Below are positions 1,511 through 64,000 of a DNA stretch of 64,000 nt, piece after piece. The notes beneath the pieces are model-generated. The model saw nothing but the letters and a program-made list of their open reading frames with translations, ran no database searches and was not told the origin of the DNA. The stretch's first letter is position 1, and each line of letters begins with the position of its first letter. Position numbers and translations under genes: made by a program. This stretch comes from Apostichopus japonicus (Eukaryota; Echinodermata; Holothuroidea; Aspidochirotida; Stichopodidae): the NCBI RefSeq assembly GCF_037975245.1, contig NC_092569.1, positions 34,508,668 through 34,572,667 on the forward strand, read 5' to 3'.

Positions 1511-4227
<2,717 letters not shown>

Positions 4228-9614: not shown

Positions 9615-12600
9615 ATGCCGGAGAAAAAATTATCCATAGGTGAGTATAAGTTAGAGAAAGGCTTTTATGTTTTAATAGTTCTGTATTTAGATTTCAGATG
9701 AAAGTCATATTAAATTCTAGTGAAGTAACTTACAGATATAGAATTTTTATTATTTTAGCCACCAAAAAAAACTAACAAAAAAAAACGTTGATTAAAATAT
9801 CTACTGGTTAAAATCAATTTCTCATTTGCATTTCCCTGAATTTACAACACGCATCAGTTACTGTACAGGCTTTTGAAGAGCAGCCTAATATTTGCTGATA
9901 ATAAGCAGTAATTGCAATAGCAATAAGCATAATATATAATTGAAATCGTAGTTAGTAGGAAATCCAGAATAGTGAAAAGACTTCCAGCCGCCACCGGGAT
10001 TCGAACCCGGGCCTCTCTCTTTATATGCGGACAACCTTACCACTAGGCTATGGATGCTGATTGTATGTCTAGAGGTTCGAAATGGGTAAGGAAGGTCGTC
10101 ATTCCACTGTAGGCGTTTGACACCTGTATCGAACAATACTAGTTCTGTTAATGGTGACATAATAGATAAAACATAATGCTAACTAACTCGAAATCATTTG
10201 TGATTCCTAAAGCCAGATCTCGAAAGAGATACTTTGAACAGACTTTGTTAATGAAATGTACAGTAGGTGAACCACAAATGAATATATATGCAATTGAAAT
10301 AGTAGTGAGTTGGAAAATCCAAAACAGTGGAAAAACTTCCAGCCTCCACCGGGATTCAAACCCGGGCCTCCCATTTATATATATATTATGATAGAGAAAA
10401 GTTGTTTATGGTCAAATTTCTGGTTGTTCAGAGCTTGTATGTTGTTAGGACACTAAATTACTTGTGTCTCAGCAACTAGCTATTAATGAAAATTTTCATT
10501 GGGCCACTTTTGCAATTTACTTACTGTGTTAATTACTTTACAGATTCTCTTAGCCTGACTTAGACGACATAAGAGTCTTAGCCCTCACCTCAAAACCCCA
10601 TTAGCCCTCACCCCCTTAACCCTCACCCCCGCACCGCCTTAGCCCTCACCCCTGCATCGCCTACCCTTTGAAAATTGATGGTTGCACACTTGCTTACTTT
10701 TAAATGCTTTGTAAATTACTTTGATCATGAAATAGCTAATGAAGAGCTGTAGAAATAATTTAACATCATTTTCTTGCTCTTTTTCATCTCCACAGTTCCC
10801 CCAGAAGTTACTCTTGATGATCTGGTAAGTTTTCAGAGTCTCACAGCCATTCACCTGAGATGAATTGTCTCTTTCCATGTTTCATTGCTCCCAGAATTGT
10901 TCATTTATTTGGTAAAGACTAGAACTTAAGTGCCTGCCTGTGTGTGTGTCCAAGAGGAATGAGGAGGGTGGGGTATCTGTTGGGTCAGGGGAGGGGAAGG
11001 GGATGGATTTGAAAGAATGAAGAAATTGTATAACTGATCAAACCATTCCAGGGTTTACATGAATTCAGGACAGATGTCTCAAAGACAAACCTGTTGATAT
11101 TATTCAAAATGTCAATAGCTATGGTATTAACAAAATGAAGTTTCAATCATTCCAAGCATTCATACTGCCTACTCTGAGAGCAAGACATTGCTTTATGACT
11201 CGGGCAGTTTAATTGATGGAAAAAAATAAACCTTGTCTCTCTTTCTCCTTCCAGGAGGACTTTTTGGCTACAGATGATTTATTTATCGACTATTTTAATG
11301 CATTTCTTCAATTGCCGGTAAGTACCATCCACATTGCATCTACATATGTCATCATCAAAGGTTTTTTTTATTTCTTTTCAATCATATTTTACTTGTCATA
11401 AATGACTAATTAACAGTTGCTGACTGCTCTTTCCTTCATTTGAACGCTGTTCTAATTCATCGATATTTAGCCTCTCATAATGCACATGTGTTTCCATGGC
11501 AACATAGATCATTAACTTACTGAAAATGGGAGTGGGGGAGGTGACTATTCCCCACCACCTTAAGTGTTCGGACAGTTTGGCCACTTTGGCTGATCGTTGA
11601 AGTATGTGTGATTCCTTTGTCGGGCGGCATCCAGTGTCTTCTCTCCTCCCCGTGTCCCTCCTCCTACCTCCCCCCCCCAATATAACAAAATGGGCTCCTT
11701 TGCTGATCAATGAGCTAAATTGATAAGGCTATTTGCTCTGGCTCACATGGAGAGCAAATTACTGCAAAATCTCAGGGAAGTTTCTGTCATTAAATTGGTC
11801 CTTTGTAGCTCTACTTAATGTTTTGAGAAACCTGCTGGATTAGACGTTAAGATTGAAATGAATACTACATAAGTGCTTGAGCTTTAGAGTTGGGTAATTA
11901 ATCTAAAGGTTATTAACTAAGTTCATTCATAAGGTCACAAGAAAACAATCAGCCAACAAAGATCAACATGATATGAAGTGTTCTATGAGATGTGACAACA
12001 ATTCTTGGATCCTCTGTTCTTTACCTTTTAACTCCTTTGAAACCAGTAATCCATTGCACCGTTCGAAGCAAATTCAGAATTCAAGATTTAGTTTAACTTG
12101 CCACATCTTCGTTTGTTTTGTTTTTATTTTGCAGACATTTCCTGAACCATTATTTTTCAACAAGGACAGAGGAGGGTTTGAAGTCATCAGCGATGCCAAG
12201 ACTGATCTCAAATCCAGACTGCGGGCCATGGTCCGTTCACAGCAGAAGAGAAAGTCGATATACAAGGCCCCTCACCAGGTCATCACAGAGCAGAGCCCCC
12301 CAAAGATGCCCTGGCACTACACAGAGGAGGAAGAACCAGACATGAAGACAAGCTTCAAGGTCCAGGTATGATATGCAGATAGGACTTATCAAAGTACTAG
12401 ACCTGAAGACAAGCTTCAAGGTCCAGGTATGACATGCAGATAAGACTTATCAAAGTACCAGACCTGAAGACAAGCTTCAAGGTCCAGGTATGACATGCAG
12501 ATAAGACTTATCAAAGTACCAGACCTGAAGACAAGCTTCAAGGTCCAGGTATGACATGCAGATAAGACTTATCAAAGTATAGAAACATAGTTTGTTGTAT

Positions 12601-28350: not shown

Positions 28351-31300
28351 GATTATTCTTTCTTTCAGTTGACTGTGTTCAGAGTCTTGTTCTCTCACTG
28401 GAATGAATTCCTGAAATACAGAAATACAATTGCTGAAGATAAAGTTTTAGAGGATTTGGAGAGGAAGAAGAGGAGGCAGAAGAAGAAAGAGGCTGAACAG
28501 AGGAGACTTGATGAAGAAAAGGTATTAATTAAAATTTATTCATTTTTATTATTAATTAAAGAAAGGAAATGTGACATAATGGTCACTCCACAATGTCAAG
28601 AAAGGAATATTTTAGTCAATTGATTCCTTCAACGACAATAAAAACGAGAGATGAATCTATTAATGGCAGTCTTTACCCTGGCCCAGCTCTGTTGGCTACT
28701 GAGCTGATGGATAATGTTGGTCCTATTTGTCTATATTTCAGGCATATTAACCTGCATACCCCAGTATGTCCACCATCTGTGCCTTAACTCTGTTAGTTCC
28801 TTACATTATGACTATTATAACATGATAAAGTAATTTGTTTCTATTTTCAGGAGCTGAAAGCATCTGTCAGGATGGAGGATGATCGTATGAGCATCAGCTC
28901 CAGGAGGATGTCCCGAATATCAGGTTTATTTGTAGATTTCTTAGAAGAAGAGGAAGACGAAGAAAAGGTCCAGTGGAAATATTCGGAATACGTTAACGGC
29001 TTGGAAAGAGAACAGCAGCTGCTGAATGGAGATGACAGAGCCTCCAGTATCATGTCATGTGAGTACTACTATCGGCCATCAGCTGTTATTGATTCCACAT
29101 GAACAAAATTGCTGGAATGTTTCCTTGTCAATAATTAAATCATTTATCTGGATAGAAAACTTAATATTTGCAGCAAATAGTTGCATTCTGATGAATTCTA
29201 GCTAACTCGCTAACTAACTAACAGTGTTGAATGTTTTTATCTTTTTCTCTCTTATCCTTCCTGATTTTTCTGTATGTTTGTTTCTTGTTTATGAATGCAT
29301 GGTGTAGATGATGATTTGAGATTTGTTTCAATAACATACTGGTTAGATGATGATTTGAGATTTGTATCAATGACAGACTGGTTAGATGATGATTTGAGAT
29401 TTGTATCAATGACAGACTGGTTAGATGATGATTTGAGATTTGTTTCAATGACAGGCTGGTTAGATGATGATTTAGATTTGTTTCAATGACAGACTGGTTA
29501 GATGATGATTTAGATTTGTTTCAATGACAGACTGTTTAGATGATGATTTGAGATTTGTATCAATGACAGACTGGTTAGATGATGATTTGAGATTTGTATC
29601 AATGACAGACTGGTTAGATGATGATTTGAGATTTGTTTCAATGACAGACTGGTTAGATGATGATTTAGATTTGTTTCAATGACAGACTGGTTAGATGATG
29701 ATTTAGATTTGTTTCAATGACAGACTGGTTAGATGATGATTTGAGATTTGTTTCAATGACAGACTGGTTAGATGATGATTTGAGATTTGTTTCAATGACA
29801 GACTGGTTAGATGATGACTTGAGATTTGTTTCAATGACAGACTGGTTAGATGATGATTTAGATTTGTTTCAATGACAGACTGGTTAGATGATAATTTGAG
29901 ATTTGTATCAATGACAGACTGGTTAGATGATGATTTGAGATTTGTATCAATGACAGACTGGTTAGATGATGATTTGAGATTTGTTTCAATGACAGACTGG
30001 TTAGATGATGATTTAGATTTGTTTCAATGACAGACTGGTTAGATGATGATTTAGATTTGTTTCAATGACAGACTGGTTAGATGATGATTTAGATTTGTTT
30101 CAATGACAGACTGGTTAGATGATAATTTGAGATTTGTATCAATGACAGACTGGTTAGATGATGATTTGAGATTTGTATCAATGACAGACTGCTTAGATGA
30201 TGATTTGAGATTTGTTTCAATGACAGACTGGTTAGATGATGACTTAGATTTGTTTCAATGACAGACTGGTTAGATGATGATTTAGATTTGTTTCAATGAC
30301 AGACTGGTTAGATGATGATTTGAGATTTGTTTCAATGACAGACTGGTTAGATGATGATTTAGATTTGTTTCAATGACAGACTGGTTAGATGATGATTTGA
30401 GATTTGTTTCAATGACAGACTGGTTAGATGATGATTTGAGATTTGTTTCAATGACAGACTGGTTAGATGATGATTTAGATTTGTTTCAATGACAGGCTGG
30501 TAGATGATGATTTGAGATTTGTTTCAATGACAGACTGATTAGATTATGATTTGAGATTTGTTTCAATGACAGCATGTCTTATCTGTTTTAGCTATTACCA
30601 ATCTAATGGATGAGAAAGAAGAGGATTCAGTCATCGAAAAGGAACAGGGACAAGACAGGAAGGATGTAAATGGTGAGGATTAGAAACAGATTAAAACAAC
30701 TTAATCATGGATGGGAAGGAATAGGAAAAAATAAATGATACATAGACATCATGGGAAGGCGTGGGAAATATAAATTATACATAGACATAATGGGAAGGTG
30801 TGGGAAAGAATAAATTATACATAGACATCATGGTAGTTTGGAAAAGTGAAGGCAATCATATAAATGGAGTTAATAGCGTTCACAAAACTAAAATAAAAAC
30901 TGTAAGGATGTGAAAGTGTGGACAAAACTAGACACACTACATGGATATTGTAATGTGGATAAAACTGAGAAAAACCACATAGATGTAATAGCATGGACTA
31001 AACTAGACACAATACATGGATGTAATAGTGTGGACAAAACTAGACACACTAAACTGATGTAATAGTGTGGACTGAAGTGAGGCATATTGAATAAAATTGT
31101 TAAAATTAAAGAAGAATTAGAAACTTGATAATGTGTGGAAGGAGCTATGACAAGGCTGGGTGGGGTTACTGGGGTAGTAGTGTCAGCAAAATTACCAAAT
31201 GTAAAGTCTAGATATTTTGGATTAATGATTTCAGCCAGTGATAAGCTTAAGCTGCACATGTACGTATGAGGTCAGGGGCGTCGGGTGGCGACAACAGCTT

Positions 31301-33254: not shown

Positions 33255-34205
33255 ATGAAATCGCAAATAGCAAAGTCTACTGGTATTTAGCCAGTAGATA
33301 GCCTGAATGTAGCTTGTTCTTGAAGAAAAATAGAAAAGTCTACTGGTATTCAGCAGATGGCCTGAGTGTAGTTCGTTCTCGAAGAGAAATAGAAAGGTCT
33401 ACTGGTATTTACCCAGTAGATAGTCTGAATGTAGCTCAATCTCGAAGATAAATAGCAAAGTCTACTGGTATTTAGACAGTAGATGGCCTGAATGCAGCTC
33501 GTTCTTGAAGAAAAATAGAAAAGTCCACTGGAATTTAGCCAGTAGATAGCCTGAATGTAGCTCGTTCTTGAAGAGAAATAGCAAAGTCTACTGGTATTTA
33601 GACACTAGATGGCCTGAATGTAGCTCGTTCTTGAAGAGAAATAGAATGGTCTACTGGTATTCAGCCAGTAGATAGCCTGAATGTAGCTCAATCTCGAAGA
33701 GAAATAGCAAAGTCTACTGGTATTTAGACAGTAGATGGCCTGAATGCAGCTCGTTCTTGAAGAAAAATAGAAAAGTCCACTGGAATTTAGCCAGTAGATA
33801 GCCTGAATGTAGCTCGTTCTTGAAGAGAAATAGCAAAGTCTACTGGTATTTAGCCAGTAGATAGCCTGAATGTAGCTCAATCTCGAAGAGAAATAGCAAA
33901 GTCTACTGGTATTTAGACAGTAGATGGCCTGAATGTAGCTCGTTCTTGAAGAGAAATAGAAAGGTCTACTGGTATTCAGCCAGTAGATAGCCTGAATGTA
34001 GCTCAATCTCGAAGAGAAATAGCAAAGTCTGCTGGTATTTAGACAGTAGATGGCCTGAATGTAGCTCGTTCTTGAAGAGAAATAGCAAAGTCTACTGGTA
34101 TTTAGCCAGTAGATGGCCTGAATGTAGCTCGTTCTTGAAGAGAAATAGCAAAGTCTGCTGGTATTTAGCCAGTATGTGGCCTGAATGTAGCTTGTTCTTA
34201 AAGAG
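33255..34205. repeat. ~63-bp satellite-like array (~15 copies), each unit with a hairpin
   Basis: The unit contains TCTACTGGTATTTAGCCAGT followed by AGA, then GCCTGAATGTAGCTCGTTCT. The start of the unit is a perfect 8-bp inverted repeat (TCTACTGG / CCAGTAGA) around a 7-nt loop. The period of about 63 bp keeps both strands open in places, producing spurious 21-residue-repeat frames such as 33605-34006. Confidence 0.9.
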
Positions 34206-40175: not shown

Positions 40176-44521
<4,346 letters not shown>

Positions 44522-49364: not shown

Positions 49365-50019
49365 TCCCTCCCTCCCTCCCTCCCTCCCTCCCTCCCTCCC
49401 TCCCTCCCTCCCTCCCTCCCTCCCTCCCTCCCTCCCTCCCTCCCTCCCTCCCTCCCTCCCTCCCTCCCTCCCTCCCTCCCTCCCTCCCTCCCTCCCTCCC
49501 TCCCTCCCTCCCTCCCTCCCTCCCTCCCTCCCTCCCTCCCTCCCTCCCTCCCTCCCTCCCTCCCTCCCTCCCTCCCTCCCTCCCTCCCTCCCTCCCTCCC
49601 TCCCTCCCTCCCTCCCTCCCTCCCTCCCTCCCTCCCTCCCTCCCTCCCTCCCTCCCTCCCTCCCTCCCTCCCTCCCTCCCTCCCTCCCTCCCTCCCTCCC
49701 TCCCTCCCTCCCTCCCTCCCTCCCTCCCTCCCTCCCTCCCTCCCTCCCTCCCTCCCTCCCTCCCTCCCTCCCTCCCTCCCTCCCTCCCTCCCTCCCTCCC
49801 TCCCTCCCTCCCTCCCTCCCTCCCTCCCTCCCTCCCTCCCTCCCTCCCTCCCTCCCTCCCTCCCTCCCTCCCTCCCTCCCTCCCTCCCTCCCTCCCTCCC
49901 TCCCTCCCTCCCTCCCTCCCTCCCTCCCTCCCTCCCTCCCTCCCTCCCTCCCTCCCTCCCTCCCTCCCTCCCTCCCTCCCTCCCTCCCTCCCTCCCTCCC
50001 TCCCTCCCTCCCTCCCTCC
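49365..50019. repeat. (TCCC)n / (GGGA)n microsatellite, ~655 bp, perfect
   Basis: About 164 uninterrupted copies of TCCC. Open frames through it in both directions (Pro-Ser-Leu-Pro or Gly-Arg-Glu-Gly repeats) are artefacts of a tetranucleotide without stop codons. The purine strand has G-triplets separated by single A residues. Confidence 0.98.
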
Positions 50020-52864: not shown

Positions 52865-55800
52865 CTACACAGGCCGTATTTTCATATCTGTGTATTGAAG
52901 GTTGCATCCATAACTGTTCAAACTAGAACTATACCAGAACATGTGCGTTCCTCGAGTAGAGCCGTCATAGTCTCCGTTGAGGTGAGAATAAGCGCAATAA
53001 GCGCAGTTGTCGCTGCCATCGGGAAAATAATTGCAATAGTAACTATAACCGGGACAATAAGACCGACACTGAGAAGCAGAATAATAACGTCTACAGTCAT
53101 AATAATCGTAGAACCACCAGGCTCCTCTGTGTTCCACAGCACAGTTGTAGCTGCTCCATCCATCGTTGTCCCGGTCTTTTGTACTGAACGGTTTATTGTT
53201 GCTACCAGACAAACGATCATAACCTGCGACAAACAAGAAAGAGTAAATAAATCGGTCATTTTATATACTTTAAACGAATCCAATATCGGATGTAAAATAG
53301 AGGGCAGTGCGTTTTTGTCCTACCAACATGAAAACGTCAGTTCCGCGAATGTTTTGTTTTTTTGTGTTCAATATTTACGATACATAAGGTGGTATTTTGT
53401 CTTTGCAAGGGAGTTTTTATATACTTTTGTTGTTGTTCCGTTTGAAATACAGCACCACAATAGGAGTAGAATACAGATGGGGAAACCACTTTAACCAAAT
53501 ACTAGGTTTGGGTTACTAGAGTCGCTAATATCGCTCTTTATTTATATTTATTCATCCGCAAGTATTTACAATACTATTCATTCATTTCATTATTTGATTG
53601 TTATTTCTAAGTTCACAACTGATTAGTTTCCTACTCTGTCAAAACTGTAGTTATAAAGTTCTTGTTTGTTGAATAATATAACCCTGTTCTACTGCGTACT
53701 GGGTATTCAGTGTGTTATTGTCATCGATTGTTCAATTATTTACCCTAGATATATAACACTTTGTAATTGGTGTATCTTTCAACCTGAGCTCACACGTTGG
53801 ACTGTAAACGTAGATTGAAATTACACTATACACAAATCATAAAATCAATACTTTTAAATGAAGAATAGAACCGACATTGTATAAACGGAATTTACTATTA
53901 ATGTAGTAGCTAATATTTTAGGTTTCGACAAAGTAACCAAAATTCGATGTATTACATTTATGAAAATCTTGAATGATATTGATTATCGTCTTTTTATTAT
54001 TTAGTTCTTATCGACATGTACTTCTAGTCTCGTACGTATAACTTCTTTGAACAGACTGATTGATTGATTAAAATTTATCGAATCTATACAGACGAATATT
54101 TCAAATAAATCATTTTTGATTCCTCTATTTCAATGTTCTATGCATGATAAACCCTAAATGACTTTTCACATAACATGATTAAATTTAAATAGCGCCTCAA
54201 AGTTTTCACATATGAGAATCATCGAAATATACTTACCACTTAAAGTCACACTATACAGTAACGAGAAGGCACACGTGACATGCTTCCAGTTACTACTAAT
54301 ATGATATTAACCCCTTTGTAAGTTGGAAGTGATGCGAGTTTGGTAGACAACAGCGAGCGGCAAGGCAACAGACATTTACGATAATTTTCAGAATACTCGT
54401 TTAGGTTGGGGTGATAGTGATGTTGAGATTTACTTTCTCTGTGTCAGAAATACATGGACACTGGCTATTATAATATCTACTGCCAAAGTTTTATATATTG
54501 TTAGGTGCTTGTTACGTGCAAACACGGCCAAGAGACTTGTGTTTCCAATGAAAAGCGGATCTTATCGTCTGCTTCTTATGTCTGTACACATTGTATACAG
54601 TCCTGAAACCTACGTGCGTTCCAGTTGTACTTCAAACGCTTGAAAGAAAATAGCAATGTTTGGAATTGAAAATTGCTGTGAACCTTGAACTTAAATATCA
54701 TTTAGCCAGGAATGCGGTAGCTATGAGATCAGGACATTAGTTGTTAGTTGCTTCTCCTAATTCACGTAATCGGTCCAGATTTATGTTTGCGTCAGTGATT
54801 AGAACCATCTATTACTCACCTGTATTTCCGCTGTGTGATCCAACTGATAGTCGATACTTGTTTGCTTGGTTATTAATCCTAAAAGTCGAATAGACGGCGT
54901 ATTTTGATGATGAGCCGGAGTCCCTTAGATCAATACGAAGCTGGTAAGTTTTCTGGTTGGTCAGAGAGTAGATATATTTATTACCTAGCCAGTGGTCATC
55001 ATTTTTATTACCGAAACCGTCCTTGTAGTCCCTCCAACCACGATAAAAGTCAACGGAGGCACTCGATCGTCGTTGGAAAACCTATGAAATAAAAAAGAAA
55101 AGTGAATCCAGCTGTATAATCTAGTTATCCGTAAGAGCATAACATTCAACGCCGTTAGATAGTTAACAAAGATATGGATACTGTGAAAGTGAGATAATTT
55201 GCAATAGTGTTTTGTTTCTTGATTTTGGTTCTTCCTTAAATGGTCAAGTGCATCTCAAAGAGATCTGCAGTGCATCATTTTGAGGAATTTAAAGTATAAT
55301 GTGAGAAAGTTCAGAATTTAAGTCCTTAATTGTTTGCGAAGCTCACCGTCCATCCTCCTCCGTTACTTTCCATCTCACAGTAAACCTGAATACCGCGTGG
55401 CCAACCATCAGGGTAAATGGTGTAAACTCCATCACTGCGTGTACCGGAAATATAAAGCTCTTGGCAATCTTTTGGGACCACCTCGCGGGTGCACGTCACT
55501 CCGTCCCCTTCGTAGTTTGTATTGCAGTAACATTTACGGACACTCCTCCTCGTAGCACAGGTTGCGTGACTACTACACTGGTAACTTTCATCTACAAGTC
55601 GGCTGTTCCTACAAGTTGATTTTCGTGTACATCTTGAATTGATGTAAAAGTGGCCCTCCTGTTTTAAGATATTCAGCAAAAAGAAAAACAACAACTAATA
55701 AATGAATTATGCATTTGCGGTTGTCATATTGAAATGTACCGGATTTCAACAATAAGTGGCCACGTGATTCCCGACTAAACGAAATACATCCCTCGACTGA

Positions 55801-58800
55801 AAGGTTTTACTGTATTGGCGACAAAAAACTGGGTCTATAGCCCCTTCACAACCACGATGCGCACGCTACTCGGTTATCTGTAAATGCAATGTAATTATCG
55901 ACAAGTATAAATAGTAAAGGTTTGCTTCTAATTATATGGACAATGATTTAAAAAAAACCATTACAAAATGACCTAAAAGAACCGTACTGACCCCTAATAC
56001 ACTTCCTTTGTCGGCAACGAAGCAGTTGTGGGTGCACGTCACTCCGTCCCCTTGGTAGTTTTGATTACAGTAGCATTTACGGACACCGTTCCTCTCAGCA
56101 CAGGTTGCGTGACCACTACACTGGTAACTCGCCTCTATAATCTGGTTATTTTGGCAAGTTGATCTTCGTGTACATCCTGAATTGATGTAAAAATCGCCAA
56201 CCTGATTTAAGATATTCATCAAGTAAGAAACAACAAATAAACAAATAATAAATTTGCGGTTGTCACAGTGAAATGTATATGATTTCAACGGTGGGTGGCC
56301 AATGATAAATCCCCTCGAATGATCTAGGTATGGATATGAACCTTTTCGAAAAATATATGAGGTCTTTCAAGCCAACTCCGATGAATGGACGTAGGAATCC
56401 GCCTTAAAAATTGTAGCCACAACTATTGCATTCAACCACTTATCACGACTATATATTAGCCATACAAATGAATCTAACCGCAAGACTGTGAAAAAAGTAT
56501 CCATGAATTTTTGTGTCAGGCTTATAAGTGCATGCACATCCGTAGGAGTGGTCTCGTGATTCCCGAATCAACGTAATATATCCATCGACTGACAGTTTTG
56601 AGAGGACTGTCGACAAAAACAAATGGGTCAATGGCCCTGCCCAACCACGATGCGAACGCCACTCAGATATCTGTACTGTAATGTGATTATCGACAAGTAT
56701 AATAAGTAAAGGTTTCCTTCTAATTATATGTACAAGATTAAGAACAAAGCATTATAAAAATGACCTGAAGGACCGTACTGACCCCTAATACACTTCCTAT
56801 GTCAGCAACGAAGCAGTTGTGGCGGCACGTAACTCCGTCCCCTTGGTAGTTTTGATTACAGTAGCATTTACGGACACCGCTCCTCTCAGTACAGGTTGCG
56901 TGACTACTACACTGGTAACTTTCATGTTCAAGCCGGCTGTTCCTACAAGTTGATTTTCGTGTACATCTTGAATTGATGTAAAAGTGGCCCTCCTGTTTTA
57001 AGATATTCAGCAAAAGGAAAGCCAACAACTAATAAATGAATTATGCATTTGCGGTTGTCATATTGAAATGTACTGGATTTCAACGATGGGTGGCCACGTG
57101 ATTCCCGACTAAACGTAATACATCCCTCGACTGAAAGATTTTACTGTATTGGCGACAAAAAACTGGGTCTATAGCCCCTACACAACCACGATGCGCACGC
57201 TACTCGCTAATCTGTAAATGCAATGTAATTATCGACAAGTATAAATAGTAAAGGTTTGCTTCTAATTATATGGACAATGATTAAAAAAACCCATTACAAA
57301 ATGACCTAAAAGAACCGTACTGACCCCTAATACACTTCCTTTGTCGGCAACGAAGCAGTTGTGGGTGCACGTCACTCCGTCCCCTTGGTAATTTGGATTG
57401 CAGTAACATTTACGGACACCGTTAATCTCAGAACAGGTTGCGTAACTACTACACTGGTAACTCTCATCCACGAGCCGACTGTTCCTACAAGTTGATTTTT
57501 GTGTACATCTTGAATTGATGTAAAAGTGGCCCTCCTAATTTAAGATATTCAGCGAAAAGAAAAACATCAACATCAACTTATAACCGAAATAAACAGAATG
57601 TGTCAGGCTTATCAGTGCATGCACACCCGTAGGAGTGGCCTCGTGATTCCCGACTAAACGTAATATATCCCTTGACTGACAATTTTGACTGGACTGGCGA
57701 CAAAAACAAATGGGTCAATGGCCCCTGCCCAACCACGACGAGCGCGTCACTCGGATAACTGTAAATGTAAAATGAATATTGACAAGTATAAAGAGTAAAG
57801 GTTTGCTTCTAATTATATGGACAATAATTAAGAACGAAGCATTATAAAAAGGGCATGAAGGAACCGAACTGACCCCTAACACACTTCCTATGTCAGCAAC
57901 GAAGCAGTTGTGGGTGCACGTCACTCCGTCCCCTTGGTAGTTTTGATTACAGTAGCATTTACGGACACCGTTCCTCTCAGCACAGGTTGCGTGACCACTA
58001 CACTGGTAACTCGCCTCTATAATCTGGTTATTTTGGCAAGTTGATCTTCGTGTACATCCTGAATTGATGTAAAAATCGCCAACCTGATTTAAGATATTCA
58101 TCAAGTAAGAAACAACAAATAAACAAATTATAAATTTGCGGTTGTCACAGTGAAATGTATATGATTTCAACGGTGGGTGGCCAATGATAAATCCCCTCGA
58201 ATGATCTAGGTATGGATATGAACCTTTTCGAAAAATATATGAGGTCTCTCAAGCCAACTCCGATGAATGGGCGTAGGAATCCGCCTTAAAATTTGTAGCC
58301 ACAAATATTGCATTCAACCACTTATCACGACTATATATTAGCCATACAAATGAATCTAACCGCAAGACTGTGAAAAAAGTATCCATGAATTTTTGTGTCA
58401 GGCTTATAAGTGCATGCACACCCGTAGGAGTGGTCTCGTGATTCCCGAATCAACGTAATATATCCCTCGACTGACAGTTTTGAGAGGACTGTCGACAAAA
58501 ACAAATGGGTCAATGGCCCTGCCCAACCACGATGCGAACGCCACTCAGATATCTGTACTGTAATGTGATTATCGACAAGTATAATAAGTAAAGGTTTCCT
58601 TCTAATTATATGTACAAGATTAAGAACAAAGCATTATAAAAATGACCTGAAGGACCGTACTGACCCCTAATACACTTCCTATGTCAGCAACGAAGCAGTT
58701 GTGGCGGCACGTCACTCCGTCCCCTTGGTAGTTTTGATTACAGTAGCATTTACGGACACCGCTCCTCTCAGTACAGGTTGCGTGACTACTACACTGGTAA

Positions 58801-61800
58801 CTTTCATGTACAAGCCGGCTGTTCCTACAAGTTGATTTTCGTGTACATCTTGAATTGATGTAAAAGTGGCCCTCCTGTTTTAAGATATTCAGCAAAAAGA
58901 AAACCAACAACTAATAAATGAATTATGCATTTGCGGTTGTCATATTGAAATGTACTGGATTTCAACGATGGGTGGCCACGTGATTCCCGACTAAACGTAA
59001 TACATCCCTCGACTGAAAGATTTTACTGTATTGGCGACAAAAAACTGGGTCTATAGCCCCTACACAACCACGATGCGCACGCTACTCGGTTATCTGTAAA
59101 TGCAACGTAATTATCGACAAGTATAAATAGTAAAGGTTTGCTTCTAATTATATGGACAATGATTTAAAAAAAACCATTACAAAATGACCTAAAAGAACCG
59201 TACTGACCCCTAATACACTTCCTTTGTCGGCAACGAAGCAGTTGTGGGTGCACGTCACTCCGTCCCCTTGGTAATTTGGATTGCAGTAACATTTACGGAC
59301 ACCGTTAATCTCAGAACAGGTTGCGTAACTACTACACTGGTAACTCTCATCCACGAGCCGACTGTTCCTACAAGTTGATTTTTGTGTACATCTTGAATTG
59401 ATGTAAAAGTGGCCCTCCTAATTTAAGATATTCAGCGAAAAGAAAAACATCAACATCAACTTATAACCGAAATAAACAGAATGTGTCAGGCTTATCAGTG
59501 CATGCACACCCGTAGGAGTGGCCTCGTGATTCCCGACTAAACGTAATATATCCCTTGACTGACAATTTTGACTGGACTGGCGACAAAAACAAATGGGTCA
59601 ATGGCCCCTGCCCAACCACGACGAGCGCGTCACTCGGATAACTGTAAATGTAAAATGAATATTGACAAGTATAAAGAGTAAAGGTTTGCTTCTAATTATA
59701 TGGACAATAATTAAGAACGAAGCATTATAAAAAGGGCATGAAAGAACCGAACTGACCCCTAACACACTTCCTATGTCAGCAACGAAGCAGTTGTGGGTGC
59801 ACGTCACTCCGTCCCCTTGGTAGTTTTGATTACAGTAGCATTTACGGACACCGTTCCTCTCAGCACAGGTTGCGTGACCACTACACTGGTAACTCGCCTC
59901 TATAATCTGGTTATTTTGGCAAGTTGATCTTCGTGTACATCCTGAATTGATGTAAAAATCGCCAACCTGATTTAAGATATTCATCAAGTAAGAAACAACA
60001 AATAAACAAATTATAAATTTGCGGTTGTCACAGTGAAATGTATATGATTTCAACGGTGGGTGGCCAATGATAAATCCCCTCGAATGATCTAGGTATGGAT
60101 AAGAACCTTTCGAAAAATATATGAGGTCTCTCAAGCCAACTCCGATGAATGGGCGTAGGAATCCGCCTTAAAATTTGTAGCCACAAATATTGCATTCAAC
60201 CACTTATCACGACTATATATTAGCCATACAAATGAATCTAACCGCAAGACTGTGAAAAAAGTATCCATGAATTTTTGTGTCAGGCTTATAAGTGCATGCA
60301 CACCCGTAGGAGTGGTCTCGTGATTCCCGAATCAACGTAATATATCCCTCGACTGACAGTTTTGAGAGGACTGTCGACAAAAACAAATGGGTCAATGGCC
60401 CTGCCCAACCACGATGCGAACGCCACTCAGATATCTGTACTGTAATGTGATTATCGACAAGTATAATAAGTAAAGGTTTCCTTCTAATTATATGTACAAG
60501 ATTAAGAACAAAGCATTATAAAAATGACCTGAAGGACCGTACTGACCCCTAATACACTTCCTATGTCAGCAACGAAGCAGTTGTGGCGGCACGTAACTCC
60601 GTCCCCTTGGTAGTTTTGATTACAGTAGCATTTACGGACACCGCTCCTCTCAGTGCAGGTTGCGTGACTACTACACTGGTAACTTTCATGTACAAGCCGG
60701 CTGTTCCTACAAGTTGATTTTCGTGTACATCTTGAATTGATGTAAAAGTGGCCCTCCTGTTTTAAGATATTCAGCAAAAAGAAAACCAACAACTAATAAA
60801 TGAATTATGCATTTGCGGTTGTCATATTGAAATGTACTGGATTTCAACGATGGGTGGCCACGTGATTCCCGACTAAACGTAATACATCCCTCGACTGAAA
60901 GATTTTACTGTATTGGCGACAAAAAACTGGGTCTATAGCCCCTACACAACCACGATGCGCACGCTACTCGGTTATCTGTAAATGCAACGTAATTATCGAC
61001 AAGTATAAATAGTAAAGGTTTGCTTCTAATTATATGGACAATGATTTAAAAAAAACCATTACAAAATGACCTAAAAGAACCGTACTGACCCCTAATACAC
61101 TTCCTTTGTCGGCAACGAAGCAGTTGTGGGTGCACGTCACTCCGTCCCCTTGGTAATTTGGATTGCAGTAACATTTACGGACACCGTTAATCTCAGAACA
61201 GGTTGCGTAACTACTACACTGGTAACTCTCATCCACGAGCCGACTGTTCCTACAAGTTGATTTTTGTGTACATCTTGAATTGATGTAAAAGTGGCCCTCC
61301 TAATTTAAGATATTCAGCGAAAAGAAAAACATCAACATCAACTCATAACCGAAATAAACAGAATGTGTCAGGCTTATCAGTGCATGCACACCCGTAGGAG
61401 TGGCCTCGTGATTCCCGACTAAACGTAATATATCCCTTGACTGACAGTTTTGACTGGACTGGCGACAAAAACAAATGGGTCAATGGCCCCTGCCCAACCA
61501 CAATGCGCGCGTCACTCGGATAACTGTAAATTTAAAATGAATATTGACAAGTATAAAGAGTAAAGGTTTGCTTCTAATTATATGGACAATAATTAAGAAC
61601 GAAGCATTATAAAAAGGGCATGAAAGAACCGAACTGACCCCTAACACACTTCCTATGTCAGCAACGAAGCAGTTGTGGGTGCACGTCACTCCGTCCCCTT
61701 GGTAGTTTTGATTACAGTAGCATTTACGGACACCGTTCCTCTCAGCACAGGTTGCGTGAGCACTACACTGGTAACTCGCCTCTATAATCTGGTTATTTTG

Positions 61801-63731
61801 GCAAGTTGATCTTCGTGTACATCCTGAATTGATGTAAAAATCGCCAACCTGATTTAAGATATTCATCAAGTAAGAAACAACAAATAAACAAATTATAAAT
61901 TTGCGGTTGTCACAGTGAAATGTATATGATTTCAACGGTGGGTGGCCAATGATAAATCCCCTCGAATGATCTAGGTATGGATAAGAACCTTTTCGAAAAA
62001 TATATGAGGTCTCTCAAGCCAACTCCGATGAATGGGCGTAGGAATCCGCCTTAAAATTTGTAGCCACAAATATTGCATTCAACCACTTATCACGACTATA
62101 TATTAGCCATACAAATGAATCTAACCGCAAGACTGTGAAAAAAGTATCCATGAATTTTTGTGTCAGGCTTATAAGTGCATGCACACCCGTAGGAGTGGTC
62201 TCGTGATTCCCGAATCAACGTAATATATCCCTCGACTGACAGTTTTGAGAGGACTGTCGACAAAAACAAATGGGTCAATGGCCCTGCCCAACCACGATGC
62301 GAACGCCACTCAGATATCTGTACTGTAATGTGATTATCGACAAGTATAATAAGTAAAGGTTTCCTTCTAATTATATGTACAAGATTAAGAACAAAGCATT
62401 ATAAAAATGACCTGAAGGACCGTACTGACCCCTAATACACTTCCTATGTCAGCAACGAAGCAGTTGTGGCGGCACGTAACTCCGTCCCCTTGGTAGTTTT
62501 GATTACAGTAGCATTTACGGACACCGCTCCTCTCAGTGCAGGTTGCGTGACTACTACACTGGTAACTTTCATGTACAAGCCGGCTGTTCCTACAAGTTGA
62601 TTTTCGTGTACATCTTGAATTGATGTAAAAGTGGCCCTCCTGTTTTAAGATATTCAGCAAAAAGAAAACCAACAACTAATAAATGAATTATGCATTTGCG
62701 GTTGTCATATTGAAATGTACTGGATTTCAACGATGGGTGGCCACGTGATTCCCGACTAAACGTAATACATCCCTCGACTGAAAGATTTTACTGTATTGGC
62801 GACAAAAAACTGGGTCTATAGCCCCTACACAACCACGATGCGCACGCTACTCGGTTATCTGTAAATGCAACGTAATTATCGACAAGTATAAATAGTAAAG
62901 GTTTGCTTCTAATTATATGGACAATGATTTAAAAAAACCCATTACAAAATGACCTAAAAGAACCGTACTGACCCCTAATACACTTCCTTTGTCGGCAACG
63001 AAGCAGTTGTGGGTGCACGTCACTCCGTCCCCTTGGTAATTTGGATTGCAGTAACATTTACGGACACCGTTAATCTCAGAACAGGTTGCGTAACTACTAC
63101 ACTGGTAACTCTCATCCACGAGCCGACTGTTCCTACAAGTTGATTTTTGTGTACATCTTGAATTGATGTAAAAGTGGCCCTCCTAATTTAAGATATTCAG
63201 CGAAAAGAAAAACATCAACATCAACTCATAACCGAAATAAACAGAATGTGTCAGGCTTATCAGTGCATGCACACCCGTAGGAGTGGCCTCGTGATTCCCG
63301 ACTAAACGTAATATATCCCTTGACTGACAGTTTTGACTGGACTGGCGACAAAAACAAATGGGTCAATGGCCCCTGCCCAACCACAATGCGCGCGTCACTC
63401 GGATAACTGTAAATTTAAAATGAATATTGACAAGTATAAAGAGTAAAGGTTTGCTTCTAATTATATGGACAATAATTAAGAACGAAGCATTATAAAAAGG
63501 GCATGAAAGAACCGAACTGACCCATAACACACTTCCTATGTCAGCAACGAAGCAGTTGTGGGTGCACGTCACTCCGTCCCCTTGGTAGTTTTGATTACAG
63601 TAGCATTTACGGACACCGTTCCTCTCAGCACAGGTTGCGTGAGCACTACACTGGTAACTCGCCTCTATAATCTGGTTATTTTGGCAAGTTGATCTTCGTG
63701 TACATCCTGAATTGATGTAAAAATCGCCAAC
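52865..63731 (-). CDS. Multi-EGF fibrinogen-related protein (5' end beyond window, >=16 exons)
   Basis: Exons in transcript order (minus): 63522-63731, 62973-63182, 62430-62639, 61639-61848, 61090-61299, 60547-60756, 59757-59966, 59208-59417, 58665-58874, 57874-58083, 57325-57534, 56783-56992, 55992-56201, 55347-55658, 54820-55081, 52865-53223. The first thirteen are 210 bp, phase 0-0, each encoding a 70-aa module with eight cysteines and an EGF core (C-S-S/G-H-A-T-C, then C-Y-C-N-x-N-Y-x-G-D-G-V-T-C). Exon 55347 adds a last EGF and opens the fibrinogen C-terminal domain ([21 protein letters not shown]). The domain continues with VFQRR, WLGN, the calcium-type [16 protein letters not shown] and ends TDMKIRPV. 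The 3663 nt in the window are in frame throughout (1220 aa plus stop). Fibrinogen-related lectins recognise carbohydrates or mediate adhesion and innate recognition; a holothurian fibrinogen-like protein is known. The signal peptide must lie outside the window. Oddity: ~33 extra Cys/Tyr-rich residues at 52985-53092. Confidence 0.88.
55992..63731 (-). repeat. Higher-order tandem repeat of EGF exons (~1882/1883-bp unit)
   Basis: Exon types A (VGDFYINSG...), B ([13 protein letters not shown]...VHES) and C (...CTQK...[10 protein letters not shown]) recur in fixed order. Type A starts at 55992, 57874, 59757, 61639 and 63522 (spacing 1882, 1883, 1882, 1883). Type B starts at 56783, 58665, 60547 and 62430; type C at 57325, 59208, 61090 and 62973. 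Introns are copied too and nearly identical between units. Within a unit, introns of 332, 339 and 581 bp share a core, so the three monomers are themselves older duplicates. Confidence 0.95.
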
Positions 63732-64000
63732 CTGATTTAAGATATTCATCAAGTAAGAAACAACAAATAAACAAATTATAAATTTGCGGTTGTCACAGTG
63801 AAATGTATATGATTTCAACGGTGGGTGGCCAATGATAAATCCCCTCGAATGATCTAGGTATGGATAAGAACCTTTTCGAAAAATATATGAGGTCTCTCAA
63901 GCCAACTCCGATGAATGGGCGTAGGAATCCGCCTTAAAATTTGTAGCCACAAATATTGCATTCAACCACTTATCACGACTATATATTAGCCATACAAATG

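Follow-up and report, generated by a model that had tools for sequence, protein, structure and literature searches.

The most familiar higher-order repeats are those of centromeric satellites, in which the monomers are non-coding. As a kind, the coding higher-order repeat is already known as well, for example from a few human genes. In NBPF20, the monomers are about 18% apart and the units about 1.6%, and four paralogues carry 7-19 canonical units (PMC9584774; statements on published systems here and below refer to the consulted parts of each source). The NBPF unit counts were equal in 20 human genomes, with variation found by others cited in that paper; polymorphism is thus not a necessary feature of such arrays. 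The kringle IV type 2 (KIV-2) variable number tandem repeat of LPA has 1-40 units per allele (PMC11462820), so a coding array can be polymorphic. Here we describe an array of EGF-module exons in a fibrinogen-domain gene of the sea cucumber Apostichopus japonicus. It lies in a 64,000-nucleotide stretch of DNA, hereafter the window (NCBI RefSeq assembly GCF_037975245.1, contig NC_092569.1, called C9 below; C9:34508668-34572667 of a 671.6-Mb genome; GC content 38.3%), and a further 60 kb beyond the right edge of the window was compared too. The COX1 gene on contig C35, set against a mammalian chain, has AAA at Asn in 9 of 9 sites, TGA at Trp in 11 of 11 and AGA at Ser in 4 of 5, in keeping with the echinoderm mitochondrial code (table 9).

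The gene is on the minus strand, and its array in the window comprises 13 exons of exactly 210 nt each, spanning positions 63731 to 55992. All 13 have AG/GT borders, phase 0-0 and no stop codons, and the terminal exon is likewise stop-free. Each 210-nt exon carries one TILa/EGF module, and three types of module, which we named V, Y and H, alternate along the array. A first-pass annotation, made from the letters of the window, had proposed a three-exon EGF unit of about 1.88 kb present in at least four copies together with its introns, and four full units of 1882-1883 bp are indeed found in the window, all on the minus strand. U1 occupies 61849-63731 (1883 bp; V1 63522-63731, Y1 62973-63182 and H1 62430-62639, with introns), U2 occupies 59967-61848 (1882 bp; V2 61639-61848, Y2 61090-61299, H2 60547-60756), U3, which looks mosaic, occupies 58084-59966 (1883 bp; V3 59757-59966, Y3 59208-59417, H3 58665-58874), and U4, at the 3' edge of the array, occupies 56202-58083 (1882 bp; V4 57874-58083, Y4 57325-57534, H4 56783-56992). 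The exon coordinates and the sharing of variants were also correct in that annotation: SAHATC occurs in the exons ending at 61639 and 63522, SGHATC in those at 55992, 57874 and 59757, and the variant CAGTGCAGG in the exons at 60547 and 62430. The last codon of V1 before the donor site (63522-63524) encodes Trp, and that of the other V exons Gly.

Taken with their introns, the three exon types are 16.3-20.6% apart (16-21% in round figures), whereas the units are 0.05-1.3% apart (98.7-99.9% identical, introns included). Monomers within a unit thus diverge far more than copies of the unit, and the array exons are open and, by sequence, spliceable within a coding gene, which bears out the higher-order organisation that had been claimed for this protein-coding gene. 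Pairwise, 2 substitutions separate U1 from U2, 12 separate U1 from U3, 24 separate U1 from U4, 10 separate U2 from U3, 24 separate U2 from U4 and 16 separate U3 from U4, U4 being the most diverged full unit. A self-BLAST at an offset of one unit gave 97.9% identity over 6,644 bp, far above chance, and among the 24 monomers of the whole gene the mean divergence was 5.0% at lag 3 versus 16.7% at lag 1. Sites variable among U1-U4 were mildly rarer in exons (5 of 630) than in introns (21 of 1253; Fisher P 0.15).

Extension of the array toward the right edge had also been predicted, and the array continues outside the window to five full units and a partial unit. The last 269 bp of the window (63732-64000, minus strand) are the 3' end of the last intron of the fifth full unit, U0; they are identical to the U1 copy, and U0 extends to C9:34574281. 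U0 differs from U2 by one substitution and from U1 by three, and the mutual divergence of U0, U1 and U2 is 0.05-0.16%. The latest copies had been taken to be two units; the youngest group holds three, namely U0, U1 and U2. After U0 comes the partial unit, with a Y and an H that are 1.5-1.7% from their U0 counterparts, and then a second array, of b-a dimers, in three copies. Two of the b-a pairs measure 785+792 = 1,577 bp and the third, at the junction, 785+661 bp. The V-Y-H and b-a units lie within C9:34564134-34580218. No difference separates b1 from b2 over their 785 bp, b3 diverges from both by 1.5%, and a2 and a3 differ by 0.8%. Divergence from V is 6.4-8.2% for the b monomers; divergence from H is 3.2-4.7% for a2 and a3 and 11% for the junction monomer a1. 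The Y monomer is 17-22% from all others. Because b is near V, a is near H and Y is far from all, the trimer looks like a b-a dimer with a Y monomer placed inside.

Changes in module number were apparent at junctions in the window gene and in one paralogue. The exon at 55992-56201 (minus strand), which the first-pass annotation had counted as an array copy, has the predicted coordinates and the SGHATC motif; it is a V/Y hybrid rather than a plain copy, its diagnostic sites having the V state as far as site 144 and the Y state at 189, 194 and 204. A Y-type intron of 333 nt follows. Compared with a complete V-Y pair, the segment lacks 549 bp, and its reading frame is undisturbed. The second case is the pair of loci L017 and L024, which have six and seven modules, respectively, and flanks with 99.80% identity over 1500 bp and 99.93% over 2865 bp. 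Monomer A5 of L017 matches monomer B5 of L024 for about 450 columns (2 mismatches) and then B6 (1 mismatch), the pattern that a single crossover between adjacent monomers would leave. Whether these loci are duplicates or haplotypes placed in tandem, their module number changed within less than 1% divergence. Loci at C9:34.65-34.72 and 35.33-35.40 Mb repeat at an offset of about 677.6-678.4 kb and are 98.5-99.9% identical (three pairs); they may represent either a recent segmental duplication or a retained haplotype.

The window gene belongs to a large cluster. When the end of the terminal exon served as query, 150 matches were scored of 1121 first-look candidates, so that the counts are lower bounds: at least 89 related terminal exons with 75% identity or more were found, all on C9, at least 84 of them at 29.36-35.78 Mb and at least 5 at 19.1-23.1 Mb. 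A genome search for Fibrinogen_C gave 169 matches from the best 150 of 2732 candidates, most of those listed being on C9. Judged from these matches, the genome carries a very large expansion of fibrinogen-related domains.

Ten loci were subjected to the lag analysis. They contain 25 (window gene), 13 (L029), 10 (L030), 8 (L031), 11 (L032), 7 (L020), 7 (L024), 6 (L017), 5 (L019) and 5 (L013) EGF exons; L029, L030 and L031 extend to an exon resembling the TIL domain, and L032 is partial, ending before the terminal exon. Divergence was lowest at lag 3 in the window gene, as given above, at lag 2 in L029 (6.8% versus 12.5% at lag 1) and in L030 (11.0% versus 15.9%, with a minimum of 1.8%), and at lag 1 in L031, L020 and L019 (3.6-3.9%). 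In L024 and L017 it was lowest at lag 3 (9.6% and 8.8%, from just 3 and 2 pairs, respectively). L032, with means of 18.5-22.8%, has no recent amplification, and L013 has too few monomers for a lag reading. Since the minima differ by locus, registers of one, two and three monomers occur among the paralogues. The sister gene L029, 0.94 Mb from the window gene, contains a single Y-H-V stretch, 97.0-97.2% identical to four such stretches of the window gene, and V-H dimers of its own. In the simplest reading, the trimer array would have grown after the split from L029.

We consider it very probable that the stalk array of phase 0-0 modules grew and shrank by misaligned recombination of exon-intron monomers, together with homogenising exchange. 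Misaligned recombination between homologous monomers would duplicate or delete blocks of one, two or three, and as the exons are exactly 210 nt long and phase-symmetric, the frame survives whenever entire monomers are added or removed. The V-Y-H block may have spread in the window gene in this manner, and the b-a dimer beside the V-Y-H array. Interior copies are near-identical and copies at both array edges are more diverged; further exchange would have homogenised the former. The recombination process itself is one that we infer from the junctions in the window gene and in one paralogue. Unequal crossover is the best supported process, and gene conversion is likely to act also.

The order of events in the array was analyzed with sites polarised against the other monomer types. 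U1 and U2 have four derived states in common, and U0 belongs with them, so for the youngest copies the stepwise block duplication proposed in the first-pass annotation stands; further back, the history is no clean ladder. U3 and U4 share three derived states, in the V-Y part. U4 has nine changes of its own that are absent from the other units and the outgroup monomers; one is a gap, and the one at site 224 is also present in the partial unit. At sites 861, 1675 and 1719, U4 has the state of the partial unit, versus that of U0-U3.

Several points weigh against the account given above. Two polarised sites, Y312 and H162, conflict with the tree of the units, and U3 looks mosaic, U4-like in its 5' part and U2-like in its 3' part (49 of 5000 label shuffles were as good). 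These observations call for gene conversion as well and do not fix the order in which the duplications took place; a single-tree stepwise duplication of U1-U4 as the full history was dropped for the mosaic signal. L029 and the window gene are unevenly diverged, with 94.3-95.0% identity in long alignments and 98.0-98.3% in an H-V stretch, so exchange between the two genes is possible, and growth of the trimer array after their split is what we infer. Four pairs of loci are near-identical (L015/L022 99.65%, L016/L023 99.87%, L025/L026 97.2-98.3%, and L017/L024), and their module counts differ in one of the four pairs, L017/L024, and are equal in the other three. Amino-acid changes between types fell below a neutral simulation with P values of 0.06 for V/Y, 0.18 for V/H and 0.015 for Y/H, and selection on the window copies alone, judged from this simulation and from exon and intron sites, is weakly shown. 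The evidence base is one genome assembly and DNA sequence only.

The mosaic unit, the conflicting sites, clustered changes at unit positions 343-347, the uneven divergence from L029 (94.3-98.3%) and the equal module counts in three of four pairs would also be in keeping with an older tandem duplication that has stayed uniform mainly through gene conversion, its copy number being long stable. We regard this explanation as unlikely: in L029 there is just one trimer-like stretch, and the dimer array is a different one; L017 and L024 differ by a whole module with a hybrid of the crossover type; and the V/Y junction has lost 549 bp. All of these are changes of number, which are beyond conversion alone. 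Growth and loss by misaligned recombination is preferred, and the block duplication, as read from the shared and conflicting sites, was accompanied by later exchange.

The near-identity of the units also bears on the assembly. The unit count could have been inflated or collapsed, or two haplotypes joined, given that the loci at the offset of about 678 kb could be retained haplotypes and that HiFi reads averaged 14.7 kb, provided that the assembly is the one of PMC10344927, against an EGF region of about 16 kb, so that the count could be off. Nevertheless, the units carry distinct variants, two array types adjoin, paralogues show other registers, and the trimer part, at about 11 kb, is shorter than the mean HiFi read; we consider an artefact very improbable. 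The heterozygosity of A. japonicus was estimated at 1.59% from k-mers and 0.73% by mapping, the latter being called an underestimate (PMC5638244). The divergence among U0, U1 and U2 is below these values, and one in four near-identical pairs of loci differs by one module; from this indirect support we predict, like the first-pass annotation, that the array is probably polymorphic in copy number among individuals. A more far-reaching proposal is that the genes amplify their stalk modules independently, in registers of 1, 2 and 3, by ongoing unequal crossover, each individual thus having its own set of recognition proteins of differing reach; this we put forward tentatively, as a possibility that is close to evenly balanced.

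Coding constraint was evaluated in 17 loci with 95 exon-length stretches. L022, L023, L024 and L026 were excluded from the set, gapped and terminal matches were dropped, and two stop-bearing stretches, in L015 and L018, were left out. All eight cysteines are kept in 77 of 77 distinct exons. The median between-gene ratio of nonsynonymous to synonymous substitution rates (dN/dS) was 0.47, with 3755 of 3781 pairs used, the pairs being non-independent. The EGF exon of L015 at C9:34651264-34651473 has a real internal stop, and its near-identical copy in L022 is open; the L018 exon at C9:34810642-34810812 has lost its 5' part, and its stop falls outside the truncated exon. Some family members are thus decaying, which would fit an array that is itself decaying, spliced out or pseudogenic. 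For the window gene this is the least probable of the explanations considered, in view of the 13 stop-free array exons and stop-free terminal exon with AG/GT borders, the invariant cysteines and the fibrinogen exons that are open to the stop.

The whole gene has 25 EGF modules, the terminal one counted. Joined modules matched Pfam TILa with 61.8 bits (cut-off 27); of four exons scanned singly, V scored above the cut-off (30.3 bits), and Y (26.9), H (25.6) and the terminal exon T (19.5) below it. The module also matches EGF_3. In exon T (55347-55658, minus strand), the last EGF module leads, with no intron in between, into the beginning of the fibrinogen C domain (PF00147, 41.5 bits), which continues in a second exon at 54820-55081 (94 bits) and a third at 52865-53223 (27.1 bits; stop codon 52865-52867), both on the minus strand. 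All three exceed the Pfam cut-off of 22 bits, and the fibrinogen exons 3' of the array have an open frame through to the stop. In the third exon, a Cys-rich insertion separates WWFY from the LNG motif; the insertion is missing from the one PDB alignment compared. Located 5' of the EGF exons is the TIL-like exon, which was aligned across eight loci and gave a full-length Pfam TIL match of 21.3 bits against a cut-off of 24.5. Outside the window (L009), two exons of a second fibrinogen domain were found at about C9:34582377-34582571 and C9:34581738-34582002 (27.1 and 76.1 bits, cut-off 22); the TIL-like exon follows in matching phase, in place of a third fibrinogen exon, and the open frames of the two exons are conserved in the four paralogue stretches compared. 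These upstream fibrinogen and TIL-like exons may share a transcript with the EGF array. A signal-peptide pattern scan upstream gave many open reading frames, none of them convincing. The structure predicted for a single module (mean predicted local distance difference test score 40.9) was too poor for a fold search, and no relative was confirmed by tblastn in viral and bacterial/archaeal contig collections, as expected for an animal gene. Judged by its domains, the predicted product is an extracellular fibrinogen-domain protein, likely lectin-like or a matrix component, whose stalk would vary in length.

Elsewhere in the window, a (TCCC)n tract of 655 bp occupies 49365-50019 (163.8 copies, 100% matches), and minisatellites with units of 39, 63 and 77 bp lie at 29300-30572, 33265-34205 and 41193-41968, respectively. 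A tRNA at 9986-10057 (minus strand, 35.5 bits) is the sole Rfam match in the window at the gathering cut-off. Protein-level similarities were found to SMP-30/gluconolactonase at 2709-3098 (plus strand, 54.6 bits) and to leucine-rich repeats at 43928-44140 (minus strand, 33.3 bits).

Searches of the literature on duplication of EGF/fibrinogen exons, EGF higher-order repeats and sea-cucumber fibrinogen-related proteins (FREPs) returned no title or abstract describing such an array, and a search for TILa combined with EGF and fibrinogen returned no paper. Like the FREPs, which are the most expanded family of A. japonicus and are up-regulated in visceral regeneration (PMC5638244), the genes presented here form an expanded and clustered fibrinogen-domain family, while the main text of that account, as consulted, contains 0 occurrences of EGF. 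As these genes sit among fibrinogen-related genes, variation in stalk length could matter for immunity or regeneration. If the proposal of independent amplification in different registers is true, the fibrinogen/EGF cluster (at least 84 terminal exons in 6.4 Mb of one chromosome) would be a natural laboratory for coding higher-order repeats. The satellite-like pattern of divergence is found here in coding exons that have splice sites and eight fixed cysteines, and registers differ among paralogues on one chromosome. Questions that can be addressed in this system include what determines the register, how frequently copy number is altered by crossover, and whether longer stalks are limited or favoured by selection.

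Tenascins resemble the predicted product in having EGF-like domains and one C-terminal fibrinogen-related domain (PMC11401434). Here, however, an EGF exon runs directly into the fibrinogen domain, unlike in tenascins, and membership of that family was rejected because none of the 14 window exons has the EGF cysteine pattern given in that paper. In the echinoderms that they searched, the same authors report finding no tenascin. As in LPA KIV-2, exons and introns are repeated together in a coding gene and the number of units sets the length of the protein; the LPA unit differs in being 5.6 kb long, with two exons and one kringle, and its polymorphism was measured, whereas that of the array described here is predicted (PMC11462820). 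The NBPF 3mer (Olduvai triplets on human chromosome 1) likewise has a three-monomer unit that includes introns, in a coding family, with nearly the same divergence profile (PMC9584774). NBPF amplification is restricted to one lineage (PMC9584774); in our case paralogues alone were compared, among which L029 has a single trimer-like stretch. Unlike NBPF, the sea cucumber array consists of TILa/EGF rather than Olduvai domains, each monomer has one exon rather than two, the amplified block comprises one, two or three monomers depending on the paralogue, and two types of array occur in a single gene. What the present case adds is the domain, the phylum, the two array types in one gene and the mixed registers among paralogues.

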